DNA from: Romanomermis culicivorax
Lineage: Eukaryota > Nematoda > Enoplea > Mermithida > Mermithidae
Length of the DNA: 64,000 nt
NCBI GenBank assembly: GCA_963922205.1
Contig: CAWUHX010000071.1
Location: 62,001 to 126,000, forward strand
Direction: 5' to 3'
The first letter of the stretch is position 1. Every line of letters begins with the position of its first letter. Position numbers and translations under genes: made by a program. The notes under the pieces are model-generated. The model was not told the origin of the DNA. It ran no database searches and saw nothing but the letters and a program-made list of their open reading frames with translations. This document shows positions 12,676 through 47,110 of the stretch, piece by piece.

Positions 12676-13365
12676 TCACCTAGAAGAGGAAATAAACCTG
12701 AGAATGTAATGTATGAAAAACAAAAATTGATCTGAAGAGAAAATGTAGTGGACAAAGAAGATGTATATTTTGAATTTATTTATGGAAAAAATTATACCTG
12801 CACTAATTATATAAAAAACATTGTATGATGTCCATCCATAAGGAAATGTACAAAAATTGCGTTTCAAAATACGTTTATCATATACTACACGAAATGTTTT
12901 CAATGTTTCTCTGGTGACAACTTTACGATCTTGTTGGCGCTCAATTCGTAGGCTACATACATTTACTTCTTCTTGGCCATTATTTTTTACAAAAGCAAAA
13001 ACAAGTCGACGTAGTGAATTAAAATTCACTTTTCTCATTGCATCTGATGATAGAGTTATCCCCGGAACCTTGATGACATGATGGTATTGTTCAGTAGATG
13101 GACTGTACACCTTGTAAGCATAATTCTTAGGACCTCCACTGACGAATTCCCTAATGTAAGATCCAGGACCATATTCACGTAATTCATCCGTCGTTTCACC
13201 CAGACACCAACCTGTTGGTACTTGATATTTTTGCTTGTCAATTGTTGACAAGTAAATAATACTGTGTGTATCAAAATACAATACTCGACTTTTTAACCCT
13301 TCAATGTAAGAATATAACTTCAGTCGAGCCTGAGCTGTTGTATAAGCTGCAATAACAGTGTTAGT
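12676..13365 (-). pseudogene. Polinton 2 DNA polymerase B, C-terminal part
   Basis: This is the 3' end of the pseudogene whose 5' part lies at 27698-31834; the two were separated by insertion of Polinton 1. The minus-strand translation matches the Polinton 3 polymerase exon 11: VLYFDTHSIIY, PTGWCLGETTDEL, YGPGSYI-EFVSGGPKNYAYKV. Motif C, which carries the catalytic aspartates and should read DTDS, reads DTHS, so the second metal-binding aspartate is lost. The homologous protein ends at YGWKF; here the frame runs on past YGWTSYN into unrelated sequence, so the native stop is gone. No ATPase or capsid genes follow to the left, so Polinton 2 survives only as its polymerase. Confidence 0.9.
13360..13365. 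other. target-site duplication GTTAGT, left
   Basis: The 6 bases before Polinton 1 are identical to 27698-27703. Polintons characteristically make 6-bp duplications, and the two copies sit at homologous points in the interrupted polymerase. Confidence 0.92.
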
Positions 13366-13994
13366 AGTAGTATAGAGGGGGGGCCTGAGTGTAAAAAGCT
13401 CCCTGGCCCATGCAAAAGATAGGCGTTGGACTTAGAAAAAAATCACAACCTCCCCGACACACAAAACATAGCCGACCTTCCACCGAGACTACTATGACGT
13501 CATTTTCCGGCTGGAAAAAAGCATGACATCACACCTGGGCTAGAAAGAAAAAAGTTGCCGAAACTTGGCCCACCCACATCTCCATCAAAACTCGAGATAA
13601 TGTGACATATATGGTACTTTTCGGAATCAGCTCAATGAGATCTATCGATTGGTACCCAACACGACCCATTTAGGACAAAAGCCCAAATTTTGTGCGAGGG
13701 GTTCTGAAAATTTCAATTGGTGTGGGCTCTACCATTTATGTTATTTGTTAATATGCATCGCTGCTGCCGCCCGCTGCCGCCGCCGCGCCTGTTGGGGGGA
13801 GGGAAGTTCGCCTAGCTAATAAAGCTGAAGCTGCTGCTTCAAGCTTTATATAGCTAGCCTAAATAGGAAAGTCATGCTATATATCAACAGAAATTGTGTA
13901 CTCATTCGCACTGATCAAAAGATCAGTCCCAGCGCCAGCCGCGAGGAGGCTAGTACACATCTGGCGCCAATACCTTCATAGAAAGTACCCACAA
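13366..13994 (+). repeat. Polinton 1 left terminal inverted repeat
   Basis: 629 bases nearly identical to the reverse complement of 27067-27697, diverging just inside GAAAGTACC. It contains a GC-rich CCGCCGC tract, a hairpin at 13812-13857 and a perfect 7-bp-arm palindrome at 13910-13927. No gene is encoded. Confidence 0.93.
13812..13857. other. hairpin in Polinton 1 terminal repeat
   Basis: CTAGCTAATAAAGCTGAAGC and GCTTCAAGCTTTATATAGCTAG form an imperfect stem of about 20 pairs with a 4-base loop. The sequence recurs inverted at the right end near 27204-27250. Hairpins near ends may help terminal-protein or integrase recognition; that is inference. Confidence 0.6.
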
Positions 13995-14066
13995 ATTGGA
14001 GAATAGTCATGCAGTACTTGAGTTAAAATTACCAGAAGTCTTGCACTATACATAGTTGCCTGATGT

Positions 14067-14222
14067 CAGACCGTCATTGGCTCCTCACCATGCACCTAAC
14101 ATCCTGCACACACACACATATATGCTCAACTCCAGGCCGTCATTGGCTCCTCACCATGCAGCTGAAACCCAGCATAGAGTTGCATGACCCTAGACTGTCA
14201 GTGGCTCCTCACCATGCATCCA
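14067..14222 (+). repeat. three tandem 63-bp repeats
   Basis: The core CCGTCATTGGCTCCTCACCA occurs at about 14072 and 14135, with a diverged third copy (CTGTCAGTGGCTCCTCACCA) at about 14198, a 63-base period. It lies between the left terminal repeat and the polymerase stop codon, so it may be part of the terminal region rather than a gene. The 64-codon open frame here is a repeat translation. Confidence 0.75.
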
Positions 14223-14381
14223 GTGCCTTGCAAAAAATCACAAAGGTCAAAAATTGAACTGGCAATTCATTTTTTTTTTGTACTGCTGAAATATTCTCTT
14301 CTTTGTGTTAAATTAAGAATGTCTACACAGTAGACATACAAATATAACCATAGTTGAAAAAATAGATAAATGAAAGGAACA

Positions 14382-17300
14382 TCACAAGTCCAATGGTACA
14401 GTTGTTATGCCATCTTCTAGGACTTTTCTTTTCACATAAAGGTATGGGAGACCCTGTTTTTCTTGGACATATGTCCAGATTTTATTATCTGGTAACATTC
14501 TGAAACCAATGTTTGTTCCGGTCCAGGGTTTCATTGTTTCCAGTACAGCTGCATACTTTTCAAAGGTGAGGTCATTGATCTTTTTCATGACCCCTTTACA
14601 GCTGATCTTTTTTTCACCTTCCCCTACCCCAATATATGTTTTTGCTGAAAGACAACACATGGATGTCCCCTGCCATTCAACTTTTAGTAAACCAGGTATT
14701 CTTTTTTGCTCTGGTTTTGTAACAAACCATTTCGGGTATACTCTATCTATAAATTCGTTCCTCAGTTCTGGTTTTACTATATCTAAGAGGTTAGATTCAG
14801 ATATTGCGAGGTAGATGCTGTCAGTGTCTGTTTCCATGCACTGATAATTTGCTGGATCAAAATATTTTTGTAAGACATCATAAAAAAATTCCAGCATCCG
14901 AATTTTGGCCCAGTTATAAACTGAAAGGCCAACTACAATAGGAAGGTCCAAGACAATTTCTTTTTTCCTCATGTGGACTTCATAACAGTTATCTGTTATA
15001 CATTTGAGTTTTTTTTATGTATGGGCTCAGACCAAGTTCAGCAGCTTTTTCATAGTCAGTGTATAAAACATCAACATGGCCTTCTTTATTAGTTAGAGTT
15101 TTCCCATAGCCAGTGTTGCCTAGCAGCTTAAATGTATCTGCTATCATAGACAATTCTGGATTTGCATCTCCTTTTTGTCTATGCTTTGTGACCTTGTCTC
15201 TGAATGCTTCAAAGGGTGTGGTTTTGTCAAACTGAACAACCTCATGAATTTTTTCTAGGATAAGACCATGTTTTACGAGAAACTGAATCATTGGGGTTGA
15301 GATCATAAGCTCTCTCCCAAAATAGCTGCTGATTAAGTTCTTTCTAGGTTGTTTCAACTGATTGGTCTTTTCTGCATATTGCTTCATGAGGTCACCAGCA
15401 TCATTTTTACCCACTTCAGCATGCTTTATGATTGGTGGGAAGTCAGCATATAGTTCTTTTAGAGAATCCGGTGTATAGATATCTACTTTTGCAAAGCCAA
15501 ATACAGACCCATCCAAAATGGCTCTTTCCATACAATTTTTATCTACATATTTTTGGAACTGGTACCTTCAGAAGAAATGAGGGCAGTTTTTGCTTCTTTT
15601 CTGTATATATTTCTGGTGTTCAGCTTCCCATTGGCACTCCCAAATAGTTATTAAATTATAGCCCAATGATCTTATATAGGCCTCTTTTTCCAGTCGTTTA
15701 GTATGCTCTTCAACACTATCTTTTTTTGTGTTTGCCTTATTAAGTGTACAGTTGTAGCAATGCCAGTAACACCCATAAAACTCATACACTGTATTGGTAT
15801 CCTGGCAGTAACCATCCACAGGCAAGTGCTTGGGGCCTATGCATTTCTCTTTACCATTCCCCAGATGCTGAATGAAATGGGCATTTTCCCAGCTTTCTTT
15901 TTCAAGCCATTCAATTGAGACTTTTTTAGCACTATTTATTTTATGGAACTTATTTTCTTTGAGAATCCAGTGATCAAAAAAGCCTGTTGGTGTTGGCATT
16001 GACTGAGCCCATAGGTACAGTGCATTAAAGTCCAAGCCGATTATAGTTTTGACAGGTTTTTTGGGGTTATTTCTAACAAAAGTTTTATCAGAAATAGCTA
16101 AACGGGTCATTACCATTGCCAAGCCACCACGCATACTTGACTTGAGAGAATAATGTAGATTTTTTGATTTTTCTGAAAAAAGAGAAAACTGGGTGTCTGG
16201 TATACTTTTGAACAAGTATCTTTCAGTTACTCCAGGCAAAGACATAGCTTCTCTAAAGATGTCAATATGGAATTGGTCCCAATAAAGCTTTGCCATTATG
16301 GTGACTGCTTCTAGGAATGGAATGACATCTCTAAGGTTATAAAATATTAGAAAATCCATCAGTGTTTGCATTTGATTATCTGTCCAGTACCTCTGACAGA
16401 TTTCATAGTCATCTTTAGTAATGTGTTCTTTCCTAAGATTACTATAAAAACCTTCAGGTGGTGGTAGTGAAGTTTCATTCAATTTTTCAAAAGAGTCCAC
16501 GTACTCATATGGGAATTTGGCCTTAGTAAGAGAAGCCCCATATGCTCTCATAAATGTGTCAAGGCTGAAGCCAGGGGCTAAATATAATGATATGTCCAAG
16601 AATTTAAGATTTTCAGTAGAGAGACATAAAAATGCGCCATTTCTTAAAATTGCTTTTGGCCATGGACTTTCCTTATTCTCCCTCACTTGTTGAACAAGTT
16701 TTGGAAAAATATTTCTCTTGATAAGATTGATATCATACTTTCCAGAGTTAAATCCCAGGCATGTTAGCTGAGTGCAATACCTCTCAAGTCGATTTTTAAC
16801 ACCAATGATTGAGTTCAAATACCCTTTTTCACGTCTCGAATCTTTTTTGCTATGTTCCAAGACTGAATTATATTGATTAGACAAAATTTCATTTTGCCTA
16901 AAGCTAATCAGTTCAAGATGCTTTAGCATTTTTTGTACTAAAATATCAGGATCATACTCCACAAAGCAAATTGGGGGGAACCCAGGAACATTTGTTGCAA
17001 CAGCACATGAAACTGGTTGGTGTTCAGTTATAAAAGTTAATTTTTCCAAATTCTGATGAGGTTTTTTTATAAGGAGTGCTTCAAAGTCATACACAGCATA
17101 GAATGGACAAAAATGTTGAGTTTCATTCACAAAAATCTCCAACTCTTTTAACTGGTCAAATATTGACTTTTTGACCATATATACACCACCTGGGAATTTA
17201 TGTACAGTTTCTCCCTCATGACAGTGATTTTTGGCATGGTCATTAAGTTTTTCCTTTTTTCTGAATAGTCTGTTACAAGAAAGACATGAATATCTCTTTG

Positions 17301-18516
17301 CATATTGATCTAAATTTACAATATAGCTGTAATGAGCTTTTCCATTTTCAACAAAAGAAACATCCAAATTAAGAAGATTTTTATATTTTTGTACTACATT
17401 TTTCCAGCACACTGCTATTTCTTTTACTATGTCTAAATGGAAAACCTGTACATCTATATGAAATAATTCTTCAATCATTTCTAGATCAGTGTAGGGAACT
17501 CCAGGAAACGATTTTATAATTTCAGGAATTTTTTTCTCTTGACAATATTTGATAAAAAGTTTGAAAACAACATTCTTATTTTCAAAACTTCCAGTAAGGC
17601 ATTGAGCTATGCAGTGAAACAAGCAAAGATTATCAGTAAATTTATTTCTTTGACTATCTTGGGTCATACATAGGAGGTTATTTTGTTGGTGAGAAACTAT
17701 TTCTGGCAAGCAAAAATTTTTACACCCTACCACAAAATTTTTTTGAGGTATAACATAAAATTCAATATTGCTTATAAGATACAAAGCCCACTTTGTATCT
17801 GGGCGAGTAAATTTTTCCTCAAAATCAATATTCCCCATAGTTTCAACTAATTGACTCAAATCCTGTCCATTTTTTATCAGAACTGGTTGATTTAGGATTG
17901 TGAAGTTATTGTGACATGTATACCAGTATTTCAACTCACCTGATTCTCGGTTTTTTAATAGGCATCCAATGGCACCATTAATTTTAAAGCACTCTTTTTC
18001 ACTTTTGTAAATATCGTCCAGCATGGCTTTGACATTGCCATGAACAGCTCCCCATCGATAATTGTATGTATGGTCCAACATATTTAATGTTGACCTGCTT
18101 GTTCTAATCAGACGCCAATAATTTTTTATTTCTTCTTGCACTTCCTCGGGATATTCAATTAAATCTGGTGGTGATTCCGGATCATCAGAAATGGTTTGTC
18201 CAGTTGTCCCAGGTATTTCACATCCATCGACATCCATTGGAAGGTTTTCTTCTGGTTTGATCATTAAACAACTGCCACTGTGCTTTGAGGCAAGTAAGTC
18301 TTTTGAGTTGGTAAAGTCAGTGGTACAATATAGACAGTGGTTGTCCTCATGTTGCTTCTGATAGTGTTTCTTCAGGCCTTTTACCTGTGTGAAGACTGAA
18401 GCACACTGAGGACACCTGTACTGGCAACCTTGATGAACTGCTCTTACATGTTCATTTAGATATCTCTCTTCACCAAACTGCCTTCCACATTCGACACAAT
18501 TGATTTGTTTCTCCAT
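14382..18516 (-). pseudogene. Polinton 1 protein-primed DNA polymerase B, broken
   Basis: Replicative polymerase of the element, about 1,370 residues from ATG 18516. The upstream in-frame ATG at 18558 adds only a hydrophobic tail, so I prefer MEKQINC. The N-terminus has three C2H2-like fingers (CVECGRQF...H, CPQCASVF...H, CLYCTTDF). Exonuclease motifs follow: VYDFEALL near residue 477, FNSGKYDINL, and YNLRDVIPF. Next come polymerase motif A (GLDFNALYLWAQ), an inserted HxC endonuclease-like segment (FYGCYWHCYNC, IWECQWE), motif B (KLLGNTGYGK) and motif C (ETDTDSIY). Catalytic residues are intact. Two lesions break the frame: an in-frame TGA at 15570-15568, and a one-base shift in the T-run near 15004-15011 just upstream of the motif C segment. 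The rest of the element reads cleanly, so the damage is recent or partly assembly error. There are no introns, unlike Polintons 2 and 3. Confidence 0.93.
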
Positions 18517-19191
18517 AATAATCAATAATAACATAAAATTAAAAATATAAAGTTTCAAAGTTCACCTTTCTTCAAGTTGTTAGAAATCACAAATGAGCTT
18601 TCCTCAAATTTTTTTGCTTTTATACTCTTATGGGAAGGATTACTGTAGGCTTAGTAGAACAGCAAAACCTACTGATCTATTCCATCAAATGTCACATCTT
18701 TCTCACTTTTTCTGATGATTCATACTGAAATAAACTGGTTTTTTCTCGTTTTTTCTTATCTCACTTTTTGATCTGTCTTTCAAGTCAAATTTAATCAAAA
18801 TGCACATATAAAAACTTTCTTGCTTACGTCACTTTTCTTTAGACAAGCAGTCACCTTATGAGTCATTTTCTCAACTATCTTTGTATAAACGTATTTCTTG
18901 TTTTTTAGCTAGCCTTGATTCACAACAATGAGCATGTGAATCACTTGAGCTTCTAATACTGTACCTCACTGCTCTTTCAATTTGATCTCTTTGCTACTTT
19001 CACTAGTGGAAAAATATGCCAGACTTAACCATCTTTTCATCTACATAAAATGTTTCATGTAGTGGGAAGGTTTTCAATCGATAAAGTTTAGGTAAATAAA
19101 CAACAACTGACTCTCTTTGAAAATTGATTGGGTGTTTTTTATGTATTGCTGGCTATAAAAGTTGGCTGGCTCTCTAAAATGAAGAAAAAAA
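18517..19191. promoter_or_regulatory. divergent intergenic region of Polinton 1
   Basis: 675 bases separate the minus-strand polymerase from the plus-strand gene block. On the minus strand a TATAAAAG box lies at 18624-18617, about 100 bases upstream of the polymerase ATG. It has TATAAAAGC rather than the TATAAAAGTTG seen before plus-strand genes, so the polymerase may belong to an earlier expression class. The interior is AT-rich with no supported gene. Confidence 0.5.
19154..19164 (+). promoter_or_regulatory. TATAAAAGTTG promoter motif 1
   Basis: Exact copy of the Polinton 1 consensus. The first T is 38 bases upstream of ATG 19192. Confidence 0.75.
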
Positions 19192-19407
19192 ATGGATGCT
19201 AACCACACTATTGAACATTTTCTAGCTTGTCTGGAAAGGCATAATGGGAAAACAGTTTTTACTGAGATATGGTATTGTGTGGCTCTATTGGCTATACTAA
19301 CAATACTGACTCTATTGAAATTGTTGAGGAGATATTTGGAGAACCTGTTCACCAAAAAACCTAAAACTAGTACAAAAAGTGTCAGATTCAATCTTGCAGA
19401 TGTATAA
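19192..19407 (+). CDS. small single-pass membrane protein, Polinton 1
   Basis: 71 residues with one hydrophobic segment at about 26-45 (IWYCVALLAILTILTLLKLL), followed directly by a basic stretch (RRYLENLFTKK) that should stay cytoplasmic by the positive-inside rule. It is led by an exact TATAAAAGTTG box, and its own stop codon (19405-19407) lies inside the next promoter motif, which supports it as real. Function is unknown. Polinton 3 has a comparable short membrane protein at 53311-53553, next to its ATPase. Possible roles are virion membrane or egress protein, but the sequence does not decide. Confidence 0.75.
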   Translation: MDANHTIEHFLACLERHNGKTVFTEIWYCVALLAILTILTLLKLLRRYLENLFTKKPKTSTKSVRFNLADV

Positions 19408-19418
19408 ATAAAAGTTTG
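19403..19418 (+). promoter_or_regulatory. variant promoter motif TATAAATAAAAGTTTG
   Basis: A looser copy that keeps TATAAA and AAAAGTTTG. It overlaps the stop codon of the membrane protein gene and sits 24 bases before the integrase ATG at 19427. Confidence 0.6.
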
Positions 19419-19426
19419 ACAGCAGC

Positions 19427-20491
19427 ATGCTTGAAAAAATGGACAAGCTCTTTGAAAGCATATACTTCAACCCAAGTACAGGGTATTATAGTGTTCAGAA
19501 CCTGTTACGACAGGCAAAAGCTAGTAATCCCAGGGTCACTCTGCATTCTGTTAAGGAATGGTTGCAGAAACAGCCAACATATACTGTACACAAGTATGCT
19601 AGGCGTCATTACCCCAGGAATAATGTTCTAGTTACTGATATTGATGAACAGTGGCAAATGGATCTTGCAGACCTCAGTTCACTCGCCAGGCATAATGATG
19701 GATACAAATTCCTTTTAAATTGTATAGATGTTCTGTCAAAATTTGCATGGTCTGTACCCTTGAAAAATAAAAATACATCATCTATTTTGCATGCCTTTCA
19801 AACAATTTTGAAATCTGGCAGAAAGCCACAAAAAATACAGACTGATGCTGGTACAGAGTTCACAAACAAAGCCTTCCAGGCCTTATTAAAGAAACTTGGC
19901 ATTAGTTTTTTCATAACTGCTAGTGAAACAAAGGCTAGCATTGTTGAGCGGTTCAATAGAACTTTAAAGGAAAGAATGTGGCGTCATTTTACTCAAAATA
20001 ATACATACAAGTACCTAAACATTCTACCCCACCTGCTAAGCTCTTACAACTCGACTAGGCATAGGACCATAGGTGTTGCTCCCATTGATGTTACTGATGA
20101 GAATAAAGCTGAAATTGTTGAAAAGCTTTTCAGGAAATGTAAGTATGGTTTACAATTTAAACTGGTCCCTGGTGACAAGGTACGCATAAGCAAAGTCAAA
20201 AGGACTTTTGAGAAGGGTTACACTCCCAATTGGAGTGATGAAGTTTTTGTGATTCGTGAGCAAAAAGCTAGATATCCTCCTGTATATATGGTAGAAGATC
20301 AGCTGGGAGAAGTCATACAGGGTGTATTTTATGAGCCAGAATTACAGAAAGTTGATGAGATTACAGATGTCTGCATTATAGAAAAGATTATAGGAAAGAG
20401 AAAAAGGGCTGGGAAAACTGAATACTTTGTTAAATGGAAGGGTCACCCAGATAAATTCAATAGTTGGGTGACAGATTTGATAAAACTATAG
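19427..20491 (+). CDS. INT: retroviral-like integrase with chromodomain, Polinton 1
   Basis: 354 residues, full length and uninterrupted. It catalyses strand transfer of the element ends into host DNA. Order: N-terminal region, in which I see no clear HHCC finger; DDE core from about residue 65, with catalytic D79 (WQMDLAD), D140 (IQTDAGTEF) and E174 (SIVERFNRTLKERMW); a C-terminal segment with VPGDKVRISKVKRTFEKGY; and a chromodomain at about 300-354 (IIEKIIGKRKRAGKTEYFVKWKGH). A chromodomain after the core is typical of Polinton and chromoviral integrases and suggests targeting through histone marks. The homologue in Polinton 3 (56040-57146) has a nonsense codon. This copy could explain the recent insertion into Polinton 2. 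Confidence 0.96.
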   Translation: MLEKMDKLFESIYFNPSTGYYSVQNLLRQAKASNPRVTLHSVKEWLQKQPTYTVHKYARRHYPRNNVLVTDIDEQWQMDLADLSSLARHNDGYKFLLNCIDVLSKFAWSVPLKNKNTSSILHAFQTILKSGRKPQKIQTDAGTEFTNKAFQALLKKLGISFFITASETKASIVERFNRTLKERMWRHFTQNNTYKYLNILPHLLSSYNSTRHRTIGVAPIDVTDENKAEIVEKLFRKCKYGLQFKLVPGDKVRISKVKRTFEKGYTPNWSDEVFVIREQKARYPPVYMVEDQLGEVIQGVFYEPELQKVDEITDVCIIEKIIGKRKRAGKTEYFVKWKGHPDKFNSWVTDLIKL

Positions 20492-20557
20492 CTACAGTAT
20501 GAAAATTAAACAATGATTTACAGGTCTAAAAATTTTTACATGTGCCTGATATTTCAG

Positions 20558-20565
20558 TATATAAG
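20558..20565 (+). promoter_or_regulatory. TATATAAG box
   Basis: TATATAAG followed by CAACTTC, 45 bases upstream of ATG 20603. It lacks the GTTG extension, so it is a weak member of the motif set. Confidence 0.4.
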
Positions 20566-20602
20566 CAACTTCAAAATTATTTCAATCATTTGATTAACTA
20601 GA

Positions 20603-20878
20603 ATGGAATCGAAAAAAGTTAAAGCTCCTATTGAACTCTGCGCTCGAAACTTGCCAAGAGCCATGTATCCCTTAATGATTGAACTGTGTTACTTTTGTCA
20701 AAAGAACAGCTCTGAACGGGAGTGTTTCCAGTTGTCTCAGGGCAAAACATTCTTTACTATTGAAATGTGCCCAAAATGTCTAGAATACAATAAGGCATTG
20801 CAGGAAGCTGGCACTGCTGTACTAAAGAAACAGTTAGCTGATAGACAGGCACTCATCTTGAAGCCTACAGTAAACTAG
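20603..20878 (+). CDS. small zinc-binding protein, Polinton 1
   Basis: 91 residues. Two CxxC knuckles, C29-x2-C32 (CYFC) and C56-x2-C59 (CPKC), are 23 residues apart, with an extra C41 between them; this is the spacing of a zinc ribbon or treble-clef fold. The C-terminal third is helical and rich in K, L and Q. I do not recognise the family. It lies between the integrase and a small helical protein, each with its own TATA-like box. In an element that also encodes a TBP-like protein, a zinc-ribbon transcription cofactor is one possibility, but that is inference; nucleic-acid or protein binding in the virion is equally open. I see no counterpart in Polinton 3. Confidence 0.7.
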   Translation: MESKKVKAPIELCARNLPRAMYPLMIELCYFCQKNSSERECFQLSQGKTFFTIEMCPKCLEYNKALQEAGTAVLKKQLADRQALILKPTVN

Positions 20879-20917
20879 TGAAATGGGATTTGCAAGTATT
20901 CTGTAACATTTTTTATG

Positions 20918-20928
20918 TATATAAGTTG
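20918..20928 (+). promoter_or_regulatory. TATATAAGTTG promoter motif
   Basis: One mismatch to the consensus and retains the GTTG extension. It is 73 bases upstream of ATG 20991, the longest spacing in the set. Confidence 0.6.
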
Positions 20929-20990
20929 TAAATTCTCCTTAGTCTTCAGTCTTCAAACTTTTCCTTCTACAGTTTAGTCACTTTTTCAAA

Positions 20991-21323
20991 ATGGAAGGTA
21001 TTTTTTTAAATGTTGCACTGAGTATGGGCACTTTTCTCAAAAGACCTTATACTCAAAAAGATGTGGCCAGATATGCCTCATATTTTTGGGATCGAATAAA
21101 TGATGGCTACAAGCGTGAATGGAAGATTTTGGCTAAAGTGGCCAATGAGCTGGATCATCGTACGGGTAAGAGAAAACTGACTGGGTTTTGGCATTTCGCT
21201 AAGGCACTAGAGAGTTTGATGAAAACTTGTAGTGCTGGACCCCTTCTTTTTGAGATCTGGATGAATCTTACTCCAGAGGCTGTACAAAAATACAATGATG
21301 AAGGTATAGATATACCCTATTAA
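20991..21323 (+). CDS. conserved small helical protein, Polinton 1
   Basis: 110 residues. The central part (YASYFWDRINDGYKREWKIL, KRKLTGFWHFAKALE) lines up with the two-exon gene at 53664-54111 of Polinton 3 (LWSRFSEVSKEALKEMAQEY, RSKISAFWFFAGQFI). The shared pattern is W-R, a basic helix, then K-x4-FW-FA. Spacing vaguely recalls an HMG-box, but I cannot assign that fold. Conservation between two divergent elements, at a similar distance from the ATPase, argues for a real function, perhaps DNA binding or core packaging. It has its own TATATAAGTTG box. Confidence 0.7.
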   Translation: MEGIFLNVALSMGTFLKRPYTQKDVARYASYFWDRINDGYKREWKILAKVANELDHRTGKRKLTGFWHFAKALESLMKTCSAGPLLFEIWMNLTPEAVQKYNDEGIDIPY

Positions 21324-21446
21324 TATTGTAATAATTGTAATTAAATATTGTGATGAAAAATAAAAGACAAGAAAAAAATTAAAAGAGAAAAAAATTTTAA
21401 AAAAAAATCAAAGCACAATTGCTGGTATTTCCAGCATGTTGCATGT

Positions 21447-21457
21447 TATAAAAGTTG
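21447..21457 (+). promoter_or_regulatory. TATAAAAGTTG promoter motif 2
   Basis: Exact copy, 31 bases upstream of ATG 21478. It lies downstream of an earlier in-frame ATG (21436), which argues that 21478 is the true ATPase start. Confidence 0.78.
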
Positions 21458-21477
21458 AGAATCTATTGAAAAAAAAC

Positions 21478-22101
21478 ATGGCTATAAAATTTAATCACCC
21501 CTTTACATGTATTGTTGCTGGCTCTACAAAAGCGGGTAAAACAACCTTTGTAAAGAATTTAGTACTAAATGTGAAGTACTTGATCGAACCCATTCCTGAA
21601 CATATTCACTGGTTCTTTAGTGAGAAGCAGCCAGTCTACAATGACTTGTCTGGCAGAGTCAACTTCTATCAGGGGTTACCTGACATGAACTTGATTAGAG
21701 AGCTCAGTCCTGCACCCCAACTTGTTATACTAGATGATCTCATGCAGGAAATCGCTAAAAATAAGCACCTGGACATTCTTTTTACTCGTGGATGTCATCA
21801 TATGAATGTGTCTGTGATACACATTGTTCAAAATGTTTTCTTCGAGGGTCTAAGAACATCTAGAATAAATGCAGAGTACCTTGTTTTGATGAAAAATCCT
21901 GCAGATAGGCTCCAAGTAAAAATTTTGGCAAGACAGTTGTTTCCTGATAAAGTAAAGTACTTTCTCGAGTCCTTCGAAGATGTCACGTTTAAACCATACA
22001 GTTATATAATTGTTGATCTTTCTCAAACAACACCTGATAAACTTAGACTCAGAGCTGATATTTTCTCAAAATTTTCCACGATATATGTGCCAAAAGTATA
22101 A
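21478..22101 (+). CDS. ATP: genome-packaging ATPase (FtsK-HerA type), Polinton 1
   Basis: 207 residues. It would power DNA translocation into the capsid. Walker A is GSTKAGKT at residues 15-22. Walker B is QLVILDDLMQE with D86 and D87. A conserved VIHIVQN segment follows near residue 115, and then TSRINAEYLVLMKNPADR. These are the marks of the Polinton/adintovirus branch of the FtsK-HerA family; length is normal. I start at 21478 rather than the ATG at 21436 because the promoter motif falls between them and the Polinton 3 homologue starts at the matching place (MEFAWKHPFN). The stop codon (22099-22101) lies inside the next promoter motif. Confidence 0.94.
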   Translation: MAIKFNHPFTCIVAGSTKAGKTTFVKNLVLNVKYLIEPIPEHIHWFFSEKQPVYNDLSGRVNFYQGLPDMNLIRELSPAPQLVILDDLMQEIAKNKHLDILFTRGCHHMNVSVIHIVQNVFFEGLRTSRINAEYLVLMKNPADRLQVKILARQLFPDKVKYFLESFEDVTFKPYSYIIVDLSQTTPDKLRLRADIFSKFSTIYVPKV

Positions 22102-22107
22102 AAGTTG
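22097..22107 (+). promoter_or_regulatory. TATAAAAGTTG promoter motif 3
   Basis: Exact copy, 36 bases upstream of ATG 22133. The TAA stop of the ATPase gene is embedded in the TATAAAA core. Confidence 0.78.
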
Positions 22108-22132
22108 TCTATTCTTGAGTTTTATAGCCAAA

Positions 22133-22477
22133 ATGCCTTGTGATCATCTTAGACATAATATTGATTACATCAGGGTACTAGCTAAGGCTAAACCCAAGCA
22201 ACGTAAAGCTATTATTAGCACCGCTGATCGTGAACTGATACTTTGTTTGTGTGAATGTATACTCAACTTCCTCGAAGGCAATATAAAAGTTGACAAAAAT
22301 ACCTTGAATAAATTAAGTTCCCACAAGGGACATTTACGAGTATTAGCAGATGAGAAAACAAGTCTCAGCAAAAGACGAGACATTCTAGAACAAAAAGGTG
22401 GATTTTTGCCTGTATTGTTGGCACCAATCTTAGGAATAGCTGGACAATTACTAGCTGATGCAATTATAAAAAGATGA
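22133..22477 (+). CDS. X-like small basic virion protein, Polinton 1
   Basis: 114 residues; start chosen from the promoter motif 36 bases upstream. Features: LCLCECILNFLEGNIKVDKN, a basic middle, then QKGGFLPVLLAPILGIAGQLL, a hydrophobic glycine-rich C-terminus. The Polinton 3 homologue at 54972-55346 has CICEICLNLLKGN and FGGFLPLVIPSLLSLA in the same order. Small proteins of this kind recur in Polintons and adintoviruses and have been compared with adenovirus core or membrane-active proteins; I give that as a family idea, not proof. The last four bases (ATGA) overlap the next gene, so the two are probably co-expressed. Confidence 0.75.
   Translation: MPCDHLRHNIDYIRVLAKAKPKQRKAIISTADRELILCLCECILNFLEGNIKVDKNTLNKLSSHKGHLRVLADEKTSLSKRRDILEQKGGFLPVLLAPILGIAGQLLADAIIKR
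22282..22292 (+). promoter_or_regulatory. internal TATAAAAGTTG, doubtful
   Basis: Exact copy inside the preceding coding sequence, where it encodes IKV. It is 192 bases from the next ATG, far outside the usual spacing, so it may be coincidental. Confidence 0.25.
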
Positions 22478-23202
22478 TGCATACAAATAAAATGATTCTT
22501 GTACCACATGACATTGGTCATAGGGAGGATATAGCAGCTAATGTAATGACTGCTTTGGATAAAGAAATGAATGACATTTTAACTAATAAGTCATTGCCCT
22601 CTGACAGAAAGATAATCTTATACAATCAAGTGTTGCACAGATATAGGCAGGCTACGCAGGATCAAACCAGACCTTATGAGTTGACTGTTAGTGAACCTAT
22701 TGCAGAACACCCCATTCCTGATTTGGAAGAAATAACACCAAAGCAAAAAAAGCCAGACACTGCTGAAAGCACTGTTGATGTTGCCCCGAGAAAAGATGTG
22801 CTGTATGAAAAAACTATGAAAATCGTACCAAAAAAGTGGCATAGTCAAGCTAAAATGTTATATGATTATGCTAAAGATAATCCACACATGGAGTGGTCAG
22901 ATAAAGGAGAAATGATTCTGAAAGGCAACAAAATAAGTGGAACTAACATTGTTGATTTGATTTCTGATGTAAAAACAGTTGGTCTGAGGCGTCAGCAAGC
23001 AATAGGGTCAGAATTGTTTGTAAAGAACCTCTTAAAGGAGAATGTGCCTCGAGATCTTTTTGTAAATAAGTCCAGGTTAAATGTTGGAAGTGAAAGCGAT
23101 GAAACATTTGCTTCCCCCCGTAGCCGGGTAGATGGTAAAAAGATTAAGGTACCCAAAAGCATAACACCAAGATCTAGATGGTTAGAATTTGGAAAAGTAT
23201 AA
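22474..23202 (+). CDS. MILVP-type conserved Polinton protein, Polinton 1
   Basis: 242 residues. It opens with NKMILVPHDIG, and the homologue in Polinton 3 (55343-56074) opens with SKMILVPQDVM. Both continue with an acidic amphipathic helix (DKEMNDILTNKSLPSDRKI), a proline-rich linker and a C-terminal globular part that includes ANVDLI/NFVDLL-like segments and a final basic tail. The family is widespread in Polintons, but I know no established function; a minor virion or scaffold component is plausible from its position just before the core and capsid genes. Start overlaps the previous stop by four bases. Its own stop (23200-23202) lies inside the next promoter motif. Confidence 0.78.
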   Translation: MMHTNKMILVPHDIGHREDIAANVMTALDKEMNDILTNKSLPSDRKIILYNQVLHRYRQATQDQTRPYELTVSEPIAEHPIPDLEEITPKQKKPDTAESTVDVAPRKDVLYEKTMKIVPKKWHSQAKMLYDYAKDNPHMEWSDKGEMILKGNKISGTNIVDLISDVKTVGLRRQQAIGSELFVKNLLKENVPRDLFVNKSRLNVGSESDETFASPRSRVDGKKIKVPKSITPRSRWLEFGKV

Positions 23203-23208
23203 AAGTTG
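23198..23208 (+). promoter_or_regulatory. TATAAAAGTTG promoter motif 4
   Basis: Exact copy, 41 bases upstream of ATG 23239. It contains the TAA stop of the preceding gene. Confidence 0.78.
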
Positions 23209-23238
23209 TAATTTACAGCATTTTGTAACCTTATAGAG

Positions 23239-23661
23239 ATGAGACAATACTTCAATCCGGAAGATTATGCAACTTGGCTTCAGTACTATACTGAACAAGC
23301 TGAACAAACTGGCTATGGTTTCAAAGGCTTCAAAGGCACTCCCTATCAACGTGGAGGAGGTCTAGGAAGCTTCTTTAGATCATTATTCAGAATGGCCATT
23401 CCTGTTATTAAGTCAGCTGCTGGCCATATTGGTAAGCAAGCGCTATCCACAGGTGCACATATTGCTGGAGATTTAGCAGAAGGTCGATCTATTAAAGAGT
23501 CTCTAGAAGAACATGGCCGAGCAGCACTCTCCAAGTTGGCTCACAGTGCTGGAGATGCCCTGCAGACTGGGAGAGGCTTGGGGACTAGACCAAAAGGTAT
23601 AAAAGTTGAGAAAAATGATATATTCTCAAAGAAAAAGAGAAGGAAACATGGCTCTAATTGA
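23239..23661 (+). CDS. Gly-rich amphipathic core-like protein, Polinton 1
   Basis: 140 residues. The core RGGGLGSFFRSLFRMAIPVI is almost identical to RGGGLGSFFRSLFRVAMPIL in Polinton 3 (58555-59025). It is followed by alternating small-residue helices (AGHIGKQALSTGAHIAGDLA) and a lysine/arginine-rich tail (KKKRRKHGSN). A glycine hinge, an amphipathic helix and a basic C-terminus resemble adenovirus pVI/pX-type minor core proteins, which bind DNA and disrupt membranes. The match is by pattern only. The next promoter motif (23598) lies inside this frame, and its last 14 bases overlap the capsid gene. Confidence 0.8.
   Translation: MRQYFNPEDYATWLQYYTEQAEQTGYGFKGFKGTPYQRGGGLGSFFRSLFRMAIPVIKSAAGHIGKQALSTGAHIAGDLAEGRSIKESLEEHGRAALSKLAHSAGDALQTGRGLGTRPKGIKVEKNDIFSKKKRRKHGSN
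23598..23608 (+). promoter_or_regulatory. TATAAAAGTTG promoter motif 5
   Basis: Exact copy within the end of the core-like gene, 50 bases upstream of the capsid ATG at 23648. It argues against the earlier in-frame ATG at 23606. Confidence 0.78.
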
Positions 23662-24949
23662 TACAATTTCTAGTATTAGTACAAAGTCTGAATTGGACTT
23701 TTTCACTGTTCCTCCCACACAAGTAGTAATTAAACGAGGCTACTGGGATGAAGTTAACCCTATAAATCCTTTCACTAATGATGGTCCATACGAATTTTGT
23801 ATACCTCCAGATCCTCACATGATTCAGCTTAGCAAAAATTATCTGTACATGACCTTGAAAATTACTTACACTGTTCCTGCTGGTGGAGCTGCACCAGTAA
23901 TTGCACCTATCAATCTGATTGGTAAAGCATTTTTCCGACAAGTGAAGCTCTTCCTGAATGGTCGTCTCATTCATGATAGTGGGGATAAGTATGCCTACAG
24001 AGCATTCTTTGAAACTGATTTAAATTTTGGTTTTGATGCTAAAAATAGTCACTTACAGTCTTCTTTGTATACTATGGAAGCTGGTCCTAAAATAGATACT
24101 GCTGATTGCCAGGGCTTTAAAGATAGAGTAAAATACTTTGAAAATAGTCAAACAGTTGAAATAACGGCTCCTCTTCATATTGATCTTCTAATGCAAGATC
24201 GATATTTACTCAGCAATACTGCGCTCAAACTGGAATTGATTCGCAATAGTAATCCATTTGTATTACAGTGCCCAGCTGGTGATGCAGAAAATGCAAAATT
24301 GGAAATTTCCCAGATGAAGCTCTTCATCAGGAAAGTTGAAGTTCTCGACAGTGTTGGATTGGCTCTGGAAAAAGCAATGTTAAAGACATCAGTAAAGTAC
24401 CCAATTAGACGAGTCCAAATGGTGAATCTTCATATTGCTAGTACAACACAATCTACACCTCTGAATACTCTATTCACTGGTAAGTTGCCACGTAGGATGA
24501 TTATAGCATGTGTCGATGCGGATGCATATCGTGGAGAAATAAAAAAATCTCCATTCAATTTTAAATGTTACAGTATAAGTGAAGTCAAGGTCATCTCTGG
24601 TGGTCAAGCTTTTCCAGCGACACCATTAAGACTTGATTTTGCCAACAACAAATATATTGGAGCGTATGATCAGCTCTTTGAAACTCTAGACATGGCTAAA
24701 GATAACAAAGGGAATGGAATTAGCAGACTTAATTTTAAAAATGGACAGTGCTACTTTGCCTTCGATTTTACACCTGACGAAGATGATAGTGGACATTGGG
24801 ACTTGATTAGAGATGGTTCCACAAGTATCGAATTGACATTTGCTGATAGGATACCTGACGCAGGTATAGAAGTTATTTTTCATGCAGAATTTGACAATTT
24901 GATTATGATCGATAAAAATAGACACGTCTTTAATGACTATACTGCATGA
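23648..24949 (+). CDS. MCP: major capsid protein, double jelly-roll, Polinton 1
   Basis: 433 residues. The N-terminus STKSELDFFTVPPTQVVIKR is the hallmark of the Polinton major capsid family (C. elegans F54H12.2-like). It continues with NDGPYEFCIPP, LIGKAFFRQVKLFLNGRLI, YPIRRVQMVNLHIAS and a conserved end, VIFHAEFDNLIMIDKNRH. Double jelly-roll trimers form the icosahedral shell of the predicted virion. The 23648 start matches the Polinton 3 N-terminus and follows the promoter motif; the earlier ATG at 23606 would add 14 residues from the preceding gene's overlap. The gene is intronless here, but split by two introns in Polinton 3. It ends in ATGA, overlapping the protease start by four bases. 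Confidence 0.95.
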   Translation: MALIDTISSISTKSELDFFTVPPTQVVIKRGYWDEVNPINPFTNDGPYEFCIPPDPHMIQLSKNYLYMTLKITYTVPAGGAAPVIAPINLIGKAFFRQVKLFLNGRLIHDSGDKYAYRAFFETDLNFGFDAKNSHLQSSLYTMEAGPKIDTADCQGFKDRVKYFENSQTVEITAPLHIDLLMQDRYLLSNTALKLELIRNSNPFVLQCPAGDAENAKLEISQMKLFIRKVEVLDSVGLALEKAMLKTSVKYPIRRVQMVNLHIASTTQSTPLNTLFTGKLPRRMIIACVDADAYRGEIKKSPFNFKCYSISEVKVISGGQAFPATPLRLDFANNKYIGAYDQLFETLDMAKDNKGNGISRLNFKNGQCYFAFDFTPDEDDSGHWDLIRDGSTSIELTFADRIPDAGIEVIFHAEFDNLIMIDKNRHVFNDYTA

Positions 24950-25440
24950 ATACCTCTGAAATCTACATCTTGATCAATAGAGATCAATCTCTCAGACAAA
25001 TCTTCAATGGGGTATTTCCTATAGACTGTTTACCACCTCTTGACACTGTACCCGCAGCATTGGTTGTAAATCTGGACAAGCAGGATGAACCTGGTTCACA
25101 CTGGGTAGCCCTGTTTGTCAATAAAAAACATGCATGTTGTTATTTTGACAGTTACAGCCTGGAACCACCTCAACAGCTTAGGAATTACATCAAGACTATA
25201 TCTACTTCTTACAAGTGCAATACCAAATGTGTTCAACCGTACTTGACTGCTACATGTGGTCAGTTATGTGTATACTTTCTCGTGTGGATAGTCAGAGGTA
25301 TAAGAATGAGGGATATTGCTGCTAGTTTGGAACAAAGCTATGCTGATGAATTTGTCACTGGCTTCATCAACAGTCTCTTTAGAACAAATACTCCCATGTA
25401 TGATGATGCATTTTTATTTGAACAGCTCAACAGAATATAA
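24946..25440 (+). CDS. PRO: adenain-like cysteine protease, Polinton 1
   Basis: 164 residues. Maturation protease of the Ulp1/adenain clan, expected to process capsid or core proteins. Catalytic set: H52 (GSHWVALF), D68 (YFDSYS), Q97 and C104 (Q-x6-C in VQPYLTATCGQ), the same Gln-to-Cys spacing as in adenovirus protease. It begins inside the stop of the major capsid gene (ATGA overlap) and has no TATA motif of its own, so it is probably expressed from the capsid transcript by reinitiation or a weak internal promoter. Its own stop codon overlaps the next promoter motif. The homologue at 57143-57640 of Polinton 3 keeps all four residues. Confidence 0.94.
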   Translation: MNTSEIYILINRDQSLRQIFNGVFPIDCLPPLDTVPAALVVNLDKQDEPGSHWVALFVNKKHACCYFDSYSLEPPQQLRNYIKTISTSYKCNTKCVQPYLTATCGQLCVYFLVWIVRGIRMRDIAASLEQSYADEFVTGFINSLFRTNTPMYDDAFLFEQLNRI

Positions 25441-25446
25441 AAGTTA
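25436..25446 (+). promoter_or_regulatory. TATAAAAGTTA promoter motif 6
   Basis: One mismatch (last base). It is 38 bases upstream of ATG 25474 and contains the TAA stop of the protease gene. Confidence 0.72.
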
Positions 25447-25473
25447 GTTTCTACCATAATGACATATCAAAAA

Positions 25474-26256
25474 ATGGATTTTTCACAGTTTTATGTAACA
25501 TTATCGAGCAATGCACAGAGTGATCCGAGTAACTCGGCTTCAAATTTTAGTATCAGGTTGCCTCATAGATTGATTTTGAAAGGTGAATGGGAATGTGCAC
25601 CTTGTGAATTCATCTACCCAAATACGTGGTTCAATATAACACCTAGTGATAGTGTAATAAAATTTTATGATCTTCAGACCAATACTAGGCAATTACTAAA
25701 AGTACCTTCTACAAGGTATGAATCTGTAATAGACTTAATTGAAGCTATTCAACAATCAATCAGGTTGTTGAGTGAACAGGAAAAAGTTCCATATAATGAG
25801 TTTATCGAATTTTCATACAGGAGATTAGCCAGAGCAGTTGTCCTGAAAGTGAACTTGACTAGAATCAAGAGCATAAAATTAAGTGATCCTTTACTCTACC
25901 TGTTGGGCTTTGAGAAATCACAACTAGAAACAACTTCATCTGAAAAATTGAAAATTGCTGCTGCACACCCTGCTGATATGAAGGCTGGTCTTGAAACTAT
26001 GTACGTTTATTGTAACATCATTGAACAACAGATTGCTGGTGATATTTTAGCCCCCCTCCTCTGTATTGTTAATATAGAAGGAGCTTTTGGTGACATTATA
26101 GATAAGATATATATAGCTCCTCACTACTTGCCTGTACTCGTAAAAGATATGGATTCTATCGAAATTTCAATTAGAACAGATCAAGACAAACCTATAAAAT
26201 TTGTCACTGGTAAAACAATTGTGAAGTTACACTTTAGAAAGCAAAGTTTATTCTAA
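25474..26256 (+). CDS. minor capsid (penton-type) protein, Polinton 1
   Basis: 260 residues from ATG 25474 (MDFSQFYVTLSSNAQ); an ATG at 25459 would add five residues. I prefer 25474 because the spacing to the TATA motif is then 38 bases, like its neighbours, and Polinton 3 starts MADQFYVTLPSN. Segments shared with that homologue: RLILKGEWECAPCEFIYPN, the MYVYCNIIEQQIAGDILAPL stretch, and HYLPVLVKDMDSIEISIRTD. This is the single jelly-roll vertex protein of Polintons, which plugs the five-fold vertices. It is followed two bases later by the TBP-like gene, so the two are probably on one transcript. Confidence 0.92.
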   Translation: MDFSQFYVTLSSNAQSDPSNSASNFSIRLPHRLILKGEWECAPCEFIYPNTWFNITPSDSVIKFYDLQTNTRQLLKVPSTRYESVIDLIEAIQQSIRLLSEQEKVPYNEFIEFSYRRLARAVVLKVNLTRIKSIKLSDPLLYLLGFEKSQLETTSSEKLKIAAAHPADMKAGLETMYVYCNIIEQQIAGDILAPLLCIVNIEGAFGDIIDKIYIAPHYLPVLVKDMDSIEISIRTDQDKPIKFVTGKTIVKLHFRKQSLF

Positions 26257-26258
26257 AA

Positions 26259-26771
26259 ATGCAAGTACAAAACATTACTATCACAGCTGAACTTGGCTGT
26301 CGACTCAATTTGGACTCACTTGCTAAAAAATTGGATGGCTCTAAACTGACTATGGGAAAATTCAGGTCACTGATTTGGCACCTCCATGATTCAAAATGTT
26401 GTCTACTATTGTACGAAAATGGGAAGCTCATATGCGTGGGCATTAAGGCAATTCAGCAGGCTGTGAAAGGTATAGATTATGCAGCAGAAATACTGCTCAA
26501 ACTCGGTTATCAGCCAAGACCCAGGAAATTTAAAATGTGCAATGTTGTTGGGTCATATGCCCTTGATCACTGTATAAATGTTGAGGAATTCTATAACACT
26601 CATAGGGGTCAATGTGATTATTCTCCCGAATTATTTCCTGCACTTAAATATACAATTAACAAGCGAGGCTTATGTGCATTGATTTTTCACAATGGTAAAA
26701 TTATTATTACAGGAGCAAAGACCTACGGTGAACTGGAGAAGAACTTCAAAGAGTTACTTGTCAATTTTTGA
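26259..26771 (+). CDS. TATA-binding-protein-like factor encoded by Polinton 1
   Basis: 170 residues forming two direct TBP repeats and nothing else. Repeat 1 (about 3-84): VQNITITAELGCRLNLDSL, then F35, Y52 in LLLYENGKLI, then GIKA. Repeat 2 (about 92-168): NVVGSYALDHCINVE, YSPELFPALKY with F126, ALIFHNGKII with F143, then GAKT. In TBP four phenylalanines kink the TATA box; here three are Phe and one is Tyr (52). The ELFP motif, both G-K turn motifs and the LG(C/Y) spots fit the saddle core. There is no N-terminal extension; length equals the conserved TBP core. It starts 2 bases after the minor capsid stop. Same codon style as the rest of the element. No counterpart in Polinton 3. Expected role: recognise the TATAAAAGTTG boxes of this element. 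Confidence 0.93.
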   Translation: MQVQNITITAELGCRLNLDSLAKKLDGSKLTMGKFRSLIWHLHDSKCCLLLYENGKLICVGIKAIQQAVKGIDYAAEILLKLGYQPRPRKFKMCNVVGSYALDHCINVEEFYNTHRGQCDYSPELFPALKYTINKRGLCALIFHNGKIIITGAKTYGELEKNFKELLVNF

Positions 26772-26820
26772 ACTTGATGAGCAAGTGTTAGTATATTCCA
26801 ATTACAGTACTACCCACTGG

Positions 26821-26830
26821 TATAAATATA
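26821..26830 (+). promoter_or_regulatory. TATAAATATA box
   Basis: TATA-like sequence 43 bases upstream of ATG 26864. It lacks the GTTG extension. Confidence 0.4.
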
Positions 26831-26863
26831 TCATATAGAAAGCTGAAACATTCATTCTCTGCA

Positions 26864-27043
26864 ATGGAGCCTTGCAACTTATGTGGGAAAACTCCTATGC
26901 ATTCTGTGCATTATGGTGTGTGTAGATATGTTCAAGCTGGAAGATATAGAGAATTGAGTGCTGATCCTTCACCAATTAAAAGAACGAAAAGGCTGATGAA
27001 GAAAGAATCCACTTGGGATCACGACTATACTGGGAAAAAGTAG
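26864..27043 (+). CDS. short zinc-knuckle protein, Polinton 1
   Basis: 59 residues, the last gene before the right terminal repeat. Potential zinc ligands are C4 and C7 (CNLC), H13 or H16, and C20 (GVC), followed by a basic, hydrophilic tail (PIKRTKRLMKKESTW). A TATA-like box lies at the usual distance. Small size and lack of a visible homologue in Polinton 3 leave it tentative. I do not recognise a family; nucleic-acid binding is plausible from the charge and the knuckle. The stop is 24 bases inside of the terminal repeat. Confidence 0.55.
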   Translation: MEPCNLCGKTPMHSVHYGVCRYVQAGRYRELSADPSPIKRTKRLMKKESTWDHDYTGKK

Positions 27044-27066
27044 AAAAAACAAAAAAAATGGGTATT

Positions 27067-27697
27067 GTAGGTACTTTCTATGAAGGTATTGGCGCCAGAT
27101 GTGTACTAGCCTCCTCGCGGCTGGCGCTGGGACTGATCTTTTGATCAGTGCGAATGAGTACACAATTTCTGTTGATATATAGCATGACTTTCCTATTTAG
27201 GCTAGCTATATAAAGCTTGAAGCGGCAGCTTCAGCTTTATTAGCTAGGCGAACTTCCCTCCCCCCAACAGGCGCGGCGGCAGCGGTGGGCGGCAGCGGCG
27301 ATGCATATTAACAAATAACATAAATGGTAGAGCCCACACCAATTGAAATTTTCAGAACCCCTCGCACAAAATTTGGGCTTTTGTCCTAAATGGGTCGTGT
27401 TGGGTACCAATCGATAGATCTCATTGAGCTGATTCCGAAAAGTACCGTATATGTCACATTATCTCGAGTTTTGATGGAGATGTGGGTGGGCCAAGTTTCG
27501 GCAACTTTTTTCTTTCTAGCCCAGGTGTGACGTCATGCTTTTTTCCAGCGGGAAAAATGACGTCATAGTAGTCGGCGGAAGGTCGGCTATGTTTTGTGTG
27601 TCGGGGAAGTTGTGATTTTTTTTCTAAGTCCAACGCCTATCTTTTGCATGGGCCGGGGAGCTTTTTACGCTCAGGCCCCCCCTCCCTCTATACTTCT
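27067..27697 (-). repeat. Polinton 1 right terminal inverted repeat
   Basis: Inverted copy of 13366-13994 with only scattered substitutions and small length changes in G/C runs. It ends CCCTCTATACTTCT. The two arms are very similar, which suggests a recent insertion or ongoing end conversion. Confidence 0.93.
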
Positions 27698-27703
27698 GTT
27701 AGT
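27698..27703. other. target-site duplication GTTAGT, right
   Basis: Identical to 13360-13365. Removing the element with one copy of the repeat leaves the Polinton 2 polymerase frame continuous across the junction. Confidence 0.92.
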
Positions 27704-46118: not shown

Positions 46119-47110
46119 AGTAGTAAGGCCGGTGGAACTGGGCGTTTTTTGACGTCATCCACTTTTTCGAGTCACGCGCAGTCACGTGACTACGCGTCGT
46201 CACGTGACTACGCGTGACTGTTGACGTCATGTCACGCTCAGTTCCACCGATAGAAAAAATCTGGCGCTACTGGGATTCGAACCCGGGTCGTCAGATTGGC
46301 AGTCGGGGATACTGCCACTCGGCCATGCGATCTTGGAAATGGTAGTTAATATATTGTATAGATAGAAAAATCCAAGTGATGATGACGAAATGTTTTCGTC
46401 ACATTTCCGGTTTTTTCTCTGAATTTTTCGTTTTTTTCACATAATTTTCTGTCTTTGATGCTTTTTCTATTTTTGTATATCTCTTCTCTGTATTGTCATC
46501 TTCATATTCTATATTTTCTTTTCAGTTTTTTTTTTTGTGTTTCTATTCTATAGGCATTTTAAGAAATACGTCTTTCTTTTTTTTTGTACTTTCCTTCCTT
46601 TATCATTTCCTTATCTTTTGCTGTTTATGTTTCACACAATCCTTTTTACCCAGTTTGTGGTTTCATAATAACATAAAACCATTCTGCGTTCAACTGCAGA
46701 AAAACGGAAATGGGGACACGTAAATAATAATAATAATAAGAAGTAAATTTGGGGGAAAAATATACTACAGCGGACTGGATGATTGAAGAATGAATGGACA
46801 AAATATTTTCGACTTCTCAAAAATTAACTGAACTTTCTAAAAATAAAGCTCTGAAGGGAGTCCTGTGGAATGCACACACCCATAAAATGGAATAATAAGT
46901 TGCGTATTGACAAGTATGTATTGTTAGAAGATGTGCGTGCCTGTGTGCATGCGAAAGAACATTGCAACACCTAATGATGTATAATCGACATGTTTTTCTT
47001 ATCAGCCCGCCTCTGTGGATAGAAGACATGTTCATGAACAATGATTTATTGAAGAGAAAAGTAACAACACATAATGGCAAGCCTGTGCATGTAGAAAATG
47101 TGCAGGATTT
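46119..47110 (+). repeat. Polinton 3 left terminal inverted repeat
   Basis: 992 bases matching the reverse complement of 61768-62756 almost throughout. The outer 120 bases are rich in short palindromes (GACGTCA, GTCACGTGAC at about 46172 and 46199), followed by a tRNA-like sequence and an AT-rich inner part. It ends in GTGCAGGATTT. Confidence 0.93.
46262..46332 (-). tRNA. tRNA-like sequence in left terminal repeat, probably degenerate
   Basis: Read on the minus strand, 71 bases contain an A-box-like TGGCCGAGTGGC, an anticodon-loop-like CTGCCAA (would be GCC, glycine), a perfect B box GGGTTCGAATCCC, and end GCGCCA. The T arm pairs well, but acceptor, D and anticodon stems pair poorly, so I doubt it is a working tRNA. 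It may be a tRNA-derived pol III promoter. The right terminal repeat holds the mirror copy with one difference in the variable part. Confidence 0.5.

Follow-up and report, generated by a model that had tools for sequence, protein, structure and literature searches.

A Polinton in the genome of the mermithid nematode Romanomermis culicivorax carries a gene for its own TATA-binding protein (TBP). The gene (26259..26771, plus strand; 170 codons from ATG to stop) lies within element 1 (13366..27697; 14,332 bp) of the window, by which we mean the whole 64,000-nucleotide stretch analysed here (contig CAWUHX010000071.1, positions 62,001 to 126,000). A first-pass annotation of the letters alone had proposed a Polinton with its own TBP, and the proposal is borne out by profile and PDB matches, insertion borders, about 50 intact copies and a gene order kept in four families. 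Judging from sequence comparisons, it is somewhat probable that the element uses this TBP to have late genes of its own transcribed, binding and expression of the protein both being putative.

Polintons are widely placed close to the base of many DNA virus groups of eukaryotes, and we know of no account of how their capsid genes get switched on. An element-encoded TBP together with a matching promoter box would open a direct way into the control of Polinton late genes.

Element 1 and its neighbours

Element 1 has AG...CT termini and stands between two copies of the 6-bp target-site duplication GTTAGT (13360..13365 and 27698..27703). Its terminal inverted repeats (13366..13994 and 27065..27697) are identical at 618 of 651 aligned columns, counted over a stretch slightly exceeding the repeat. 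The insertion is nested: it interrupts the polB of a third Polinton, a minus-strand gene with its N-terminal part in the right flank (ORFs 28259-31834) and its C-terminal part in the left flank (12676-13281). When the flanks are joined at one GTTAGT copy, an in-frame polB results that, compared by eye, resembles the polB of element 2 (below). The exact borders claimed in the first pass hold on all these points, and host DNA flanking the element is excluded as the source of the TBP by the duplication and the empty site.

The integrase with chromodomain (19427..20491, plus strand) matches Pfam rve and Chromo above cut-off, as the packaging ATPase (21478..22101, plus; start set by alignment to element 2) matches Pox_A32. 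The double jelly roll (DJR) major capsid protein (MCP; 23648..24949, plus) is 51% identical to that of element 2 and matches the Pfam DJR-like model at E=6.7e-4, under its cut-off; the adenain-like protease (24946..25440, plus) matches Peptidase_C5 at E=6e-4, slightly under its cut-off. The minor capsid protein (mCP; 25474..26256, plus), which has no Pfam match, is assigned from its place in the gene order and its homologues in other elements. ORF ‘VI’ (23239..23661, plus) and a 59-codon Cys-containing ORF (26864..27043, plus) also lack Pfam matches; the former is kept in families B2 and C and in element-2 types, and the latter follows the TBP gene in families A, B and B2 (families are described below). 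The N-terminal part of polB (15568..18558, minus), with two further ORFs (14989-15531 and 14382-14972), is assigned through homology between elements, including locus L083; the longest polB ORF was not matched by Pfam polB. By its terminal repeats, 6-bp duplication, polB, integrase, ATPase, protease and DJR capsid, element 1 is a Polinton/Maverick. Neither RNA polymerase subunits nor TFIIB were found in it by Pfam scans.

The TBP gene had been described as lying between two structural genes. Upstream is the minor capsid gene, with its stop at 26256; downstream are just the 59-codon ORF and the terminal repeat, so that part of the description fails.

The window also holds element 2 (46116..62759), a sister Polinton with inverted repeats that serves as an in-window control: no TBP was found in it by tblastn, nor by phmmer over the window's 1453 stop-to-stop ORFs. 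Capsid copies of element 2 occur at four other places in the genome (C177, C260, C19 and C188), and their 99-100% identity points to its recent spread. Its ORF 61009-61704 (minus) has a weak PC4 match (Pfam E=0.031, below cut-off, and with no PDB support); if the match is real, the TBP-less sister has another transcription cofactor. Dozens of near-identical capsid genes, 54% identical to that of element 2 (e.g. C63:1268803-1269816), belong to a recently expanded family and have one to three in-frame TAA, with the same count, which may be introns. A tandem array with units of ~312-319 bp occupies 42227-43373.

The TBP gene and its product

The position, strand and 170-residue length given in the first pass were all exact. 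The Pfam TBP profile PF00352 covers two stretches of the product at E=2.7e-36 (123.7 bits against a curated cut-off of 22.9), so the claim of two TBP repeats passes the profile-search check proposed with it. Of the 35 distinct PDB sequences that match, 30 are eukaryotic or chimeric TBP chains, at 3.4e-27 (human TBP) to 4.4e-22; the remaining 5 are archaeal, at 2.9e-18 or weaker. On these matches the ORF is a complete two-repeat TBP.

AlphaFold2 given an alignment of 30 TBPs returned a model with pLDDT 93.1 and pTM 0.81, in which the order of strand and helix is repeated twice; the predicted fold is the TBP saddle. Single-sequence prediction gave a pLDDT of 37.6, and because prediction fails without other TBPs, the saddle model agrees with the TBP reading and is not independent proof of it. 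The residues singled out in the first pass as those that kink DNA, F35, Y52, F126 and F143, align with yeast F99, F116, F190 and F207, so all four kink positions are aromatic in the window protein. A chance ORF is excluded by the Pfam and PDB matches, the genomic copies and the dN/dS values given below.

Copies and families in the host genome

The host assembly (359 Mb in 595 contigs) was searched for copies, taking matches to the element TBP at E<=1, and at least 151 were found. Many contain stops. Among the matches listed, family A has 50 stop-free copies of full or almost full length (one runs only to residue 167), at 83-100% identity. Other types are more distant from the window protein: B at ~67%, B2 at ~64% and C at ~35-36% identity. 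Searches with yeast TBP and with the Pfam model brought in types D and E.

Families A, B, B2 and C maintain the order capsid, protease, minor capsid, TBP, even though the family C proteins are only ~50% (protease), 33-44% (minor capsid) and ~35% (TBP) identical to those of the window. In type E (L056-L058 and L065) a minor-capsid-like ORF lies 0.5-0.7 kb downstream of the TBP gene (25% identity, E=2e-8, in L056). At the type D locus L053, the TBP gene and an N-terminal polB ORF resembling that of element 2 (44%, E=1e-21) are arranged head to head, and L073 and L077 have, by eye, a similar arrangement.

Viewed from the capsid gene, 84 of the 96 listed element-1-type capsid loci have a same-strand TBP no more than 3 kb downstream, and 90 have one within 20 kb (the 96 were merged from 100 entries, and are those scored of 1628 first-look candidates). 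At none of the 114 listed element-2-type capsid loci (derived from 115 matches) was a TBP within 20 kb among the TBP matches listed, a count that strongly diverged TBPs could escape. Conversely, 56 of the 144 listed TBP places have no capsid within 20 kb among the matches listed.

The first pass had proposed looking for the gene in the same place in other Polintons, its absence from every other copy of the element being what a one-off host capture would leave. Most listed copies carry it, in the same order in the four families, and one-off capture is excluded by the number of genomic matches and by the capsid loci with a TBP directly downstream.

A promoter box in TBP-positive lineages

Aligned by start codon, the element-1 genes have TATAAAAGTTG in common, and the 11-bp motif of the first pass is real in this form. 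The exact box TATAAAAGTT occurs 8 times in element 1, always on the plus strand, where 0.07 are expected (mean of 30 shuffles); elsewhere in the window it occurs once in element 2 (minus strand) and not at all in the other 33 kb. Copies stand 31 bp before the ATPase ATG (21447..21456), 36 bp before ORF 22133 (22097..22106), 41 bp before VI (23198..23207), 50 bp before the MCP gene (23598..23607) and 38 bp before the minor capsid gene (25436..25445); three of the eight (17029, 19154 and 22282) have no clear gene. The TBP gene itself is preceded by a one-mismatch box only, and the 59-codon ORF has its own box, TATAAATA. The boxes at 22097 and 25436 overlap the TAA stop of the preceding gene (ATPase and protease, respectively), as is also seen at the family C protease (L044-L047).

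Within the window, TATAWAWR is found within 110 bp of 10 of 12 element-1 starts against 3 of 11 element-2 starts. For a comparison across lineages, TBP-positive families A, B, B2 and C were set against TBP-negative element 2, L079, L081 and L082, excluding L080, which nearly duplicates L079. Start positions followed a fixed rule, with the mCP of family B and the MCP of L079 anchored on the alignment start in place of an ATG. For VI, MCP and mCP, 9 of 11 TBP-positive and 0 of 12 TBP-negative starts have TATAAAAG 30-70 bp upstream, and 10/11 and 1/12, respectively, have TATAWAWR at -25 to -70, counts that are not independent since the compared lineages are related. The two TBP-positive misses are the B2 mCP, where the ATG chosen is the one farther upstream and the box is at -11, and the C MCP, which has TATAAAAGC at -65, outside the pattern. 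Protease starts have no box in either group (0/3 TBP-positive, 0/3 TBP-negative lineages). Some TBP-negative capsid genes have TATA-like boxes farther out, at -91 to -95, among them a TATAAAAG at -95 of the L081 MCP.

In family A, TATAAAAG precedes mCP at 31 of 32 readable loci. No exact TATAAAAGTT was found in D and E loci within the stretches examined; TATAAATA precedes TBP in two D loci (L053 and L077) and in family C. The presence of the box in TBP-positive lineages, and its lack at the same places in TBP-negative ones, suggests that the element brings its own promoter-recognition factor. Relatedness among the TBP-positive lineages means that box and gene may also share a history without sharing a function.

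Surfaces of the element TBP

Residues were mapped on yeast TBP across nine element rows. N69, N159, F207 and T215 are kept in all nine; the two Asn we take to be those of the minor groove, and T215, T124 and the kink Phe to belong to the DNA-contact face. Departures on that face are F116 to Tyr in four A/B/B2 rows, F190 to Tyr in one C row, F99 to Ile in L073 and T124 to Val in all six A to C rows. On the convex face, the yeast, human and host TBPs have K or R at the positions of K133, R137 and K138, where the A to C rows have V-D-Y, V-D-F, V-D-H or A-D-N; these residues are partly kept in D, E and two archaeal rows. These basic residues are presumably contacts of TFIIA, Mot1, NC2 and TAFs. 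E188 is kept in 9/9 rows and L189 in 8/9 (Ile in L073), both presumably part of the TFIIB contact; E186 is found in D and E only.

Since the element TBP has largely kept its DNA face, while families A to C have lost basic residues of the convex face, it probably acts outside TFIID. The loss is suggestive of evasion of host TBP regulators no less than of displacement of host TBP. In the mechanism we propose, the element TBP would bind the TATAAAAGTT boxes in the nucleus; once bound, it would recruit host TFIIB and RNA polymerase II, and the polymerase would transcribe the structural genes of the element, the TBP being akin to a viral pre-initiation factor.

The same surfaces admit an anti-host role, in which the protein occupies host TATA promoters or titrates TFIIB, damping host or antiviral transcription, while host TBP reads the element genes. 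It is favoured by conservation of the DNA face and of part of the TFIIB contact (E188, L189), and by the boxes being ordinary TATA boxes; TATAAAAG is a good box for host TBP too, so host TBP could read it. We consider this role unlikely; it leaves unexplained a stereotyped box that TBP-positive lineages have and TBP-negative lineages lack.

A broader form of the preferred reading, transcription of the element's own late genes, is offered tentatively, as a little short of an even chance. It would make the protein an old, standing TBP of a whole animal-Polinton branch (A, B, B2, C, D and E) with a self-contained promoter code: a TBP free of host TFIIA, Mot1 and TAF control and, as its target, a TATA box extended past TATAAAAG by GTTG-like letters and placed here and there over the preceding stop codon. 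If true, DJR-capsid viruses of animals have a means of turning on their late genes with no RNA polymerase of their own.

Selection and origin

Sixteen stop-free family-A copies have a median dN/dS of 0.186 (120 pairs, range 0.098-0.887), and family C has a median of 0.375, up to 1.08 (6 pairs). Ten disjoint pairs drawn from 20 family-A copies give a pN/pS of 0.35, a departure from neutrality at p=1e-8. By these measures the element TBPs are under purifying selection. That the gene is a dead or neutral passenger, an old capture without function, is accordingly hard to credit: stops in many copies and a dN/dS near 0.9 to 1.1 in some pairs speak for it, but it conflicts with the family-A median, with the depletion of nonsynonymous changes over disjoint pairs and with retention of the gene across families whose TBPs are just 34-40% identical (A against C).

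The host has its own TBP in a separate, intron-bearing gene (C95:239337-239992) whose product shares 86% identity with human TBP and 32% with the window protein. The element gene is on these grounds neither the host TBP locus nor a recent copy of it. In phylogenies with eukaryotic, archaeal and viral TBPs, as the first pass had recommended, the element TBPs form one group in each of four trees (tabulated support 97/92, 90/87, 94/94 and 94/92; the drawn branch of the third has 87/80), separate from cellular eukaryotic, archaeal and giant-virus-like TBPs, with long branches flagged in every tree.

Recent capture from the host or another animal is, in our judgement, quite improbable. In one data set, the AU test did not reject a constrained group of element and animal TBPs (p=0.118), nor one of elements with host TBP alone (p=0.059); the grouping with animal TBPs was rejected in a fuller set (p=0.031) and when made with families A to C alone (p=0.027). 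Unconstrained trees separate element from cellular TBPs, and the low identity to host TBP and the introns of the host gene also tell against such a capture. Joining the element TBPs with all cellular eukaryotic TBPs gave p=0.093. A grouping with one human TLF was not preferred (AU p=0.068), and the kink Phe are mostly kept. One old origin of the element TBPs is favoured by these comparisons.

Relatives beyond the host genome

Among 42 protein-database candidates there were no close relatives of the window TBP at E<=0.01, and as a query it found none in viral contig or genome contig collections. The element ATPase and capsid likewise found no relatives among viral contigs, while metagenome proteins gave 224 capsid matches at up to 75% identity. 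A TBP-alignment search of viral contigs yielded 11 loci, of which L007 and L010 look haloarchaeal by eye; no other Polinton protein matched near any of the 11 within the stretch examined. An alignment of element TBPs yielded 5 loci, two of them already among those 11 places. By eye, L086 (80 kb) and L087 (36 kb) are giant-virus-like contigs with eukaryote-like TBPs, and neither these nor L089 have a match to another Polinton protein. In the phage collection a single TBP was found, from a haloarchaeal virus, and a PHROGs search gave nothing useful.

These contigs bear on a virophage-like use, in which the TBP would serve promoters during giant-virus co-infection, with the gene or the box coming from that virus. 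L086 and L087 do encode TBPs, a joint grouping of element and giant-virus-like TBPs is borderline (p=0.051), and regulatory elements common to virophages and giant viruses are described in PMC11464507. The unconstrained trees, however, keep the two kinds of TBP apart, and we rate such a use as very unlikely.

Comparison with known systems

No TBP-bearing Polinton was found in the open-access full-text literature, searched mostly at title and abstract level. A term search found no TBP or TATA-binding text in PMC11071308, PMC10120064, PMC11071296, PMC8097293, PMC11244446, PMC7805220, PMC12721341 or PMC12220804, the last matching TATA solely through names of authors in its reference list. Element 1 has polB, integrase, ATPase, protease, DJR capsid, terminal inverted repeats and a 6-bp duplication in common with known Polintons/Mavericks and adintoviruses, and adds to them a TBP.

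Virus-encoded TBPs are known from giant viruses, mirusviruses and African swine fever virus (ASFV). ASFV B263R is predicted to have three of the kink Phe (PMC5825884), 59% of mirusvirus genomes encode a TBP (PMC10132985), and TBPs are encoded by yellowstone algal viruses and by megavirus. Megavirus also has genes for RNA polymerase subunits and TFIIB, none of which the Pfam scans found in element 1. Mirusvirus-like endogenous elements of Cymbomonas sporadically encode TBP and are integrated like element 1, but they have an HK97-fold capsid, and the excerpted text (PMC10675990) reports polB, ATPase and DJR capsid as not found there.

Similar in logic are the beta- and gamma-herpesviruses, in which a viral TBP mimic works with host Pol II on late promoters that have a stereotyped box (PMC4893493); these factors of the viral pre-initiation complex (vPIC) are EBV BcRF1, KSHV ORF24 and CMV UL87. 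The resemblance is in logic only: the herpesvirus box is TATT and not TATAAAAG, and the factor works alongside five other viral proteins. Its likeness to TBP is only distant, while that of the Polinton protein is unmistakable.

Cellular eukaryotic TBPs (PF00352), that of the host included, likewise have two repeats, the saddle fold (here a model), mostly kept kink Phe and the minor-groove Asn. The element protein differs in being ~31-36% identical to them, in having no N-terminal extension, in lacking the basic convex-face residues in A to C and in being encoded by a single ORF within a mobile element. It offers a strongly diverged natural TBP with its DNA face kept and its host regulatory surfaces changed, and sister elements with and without a TBP within a single genome allow a paired comparison.
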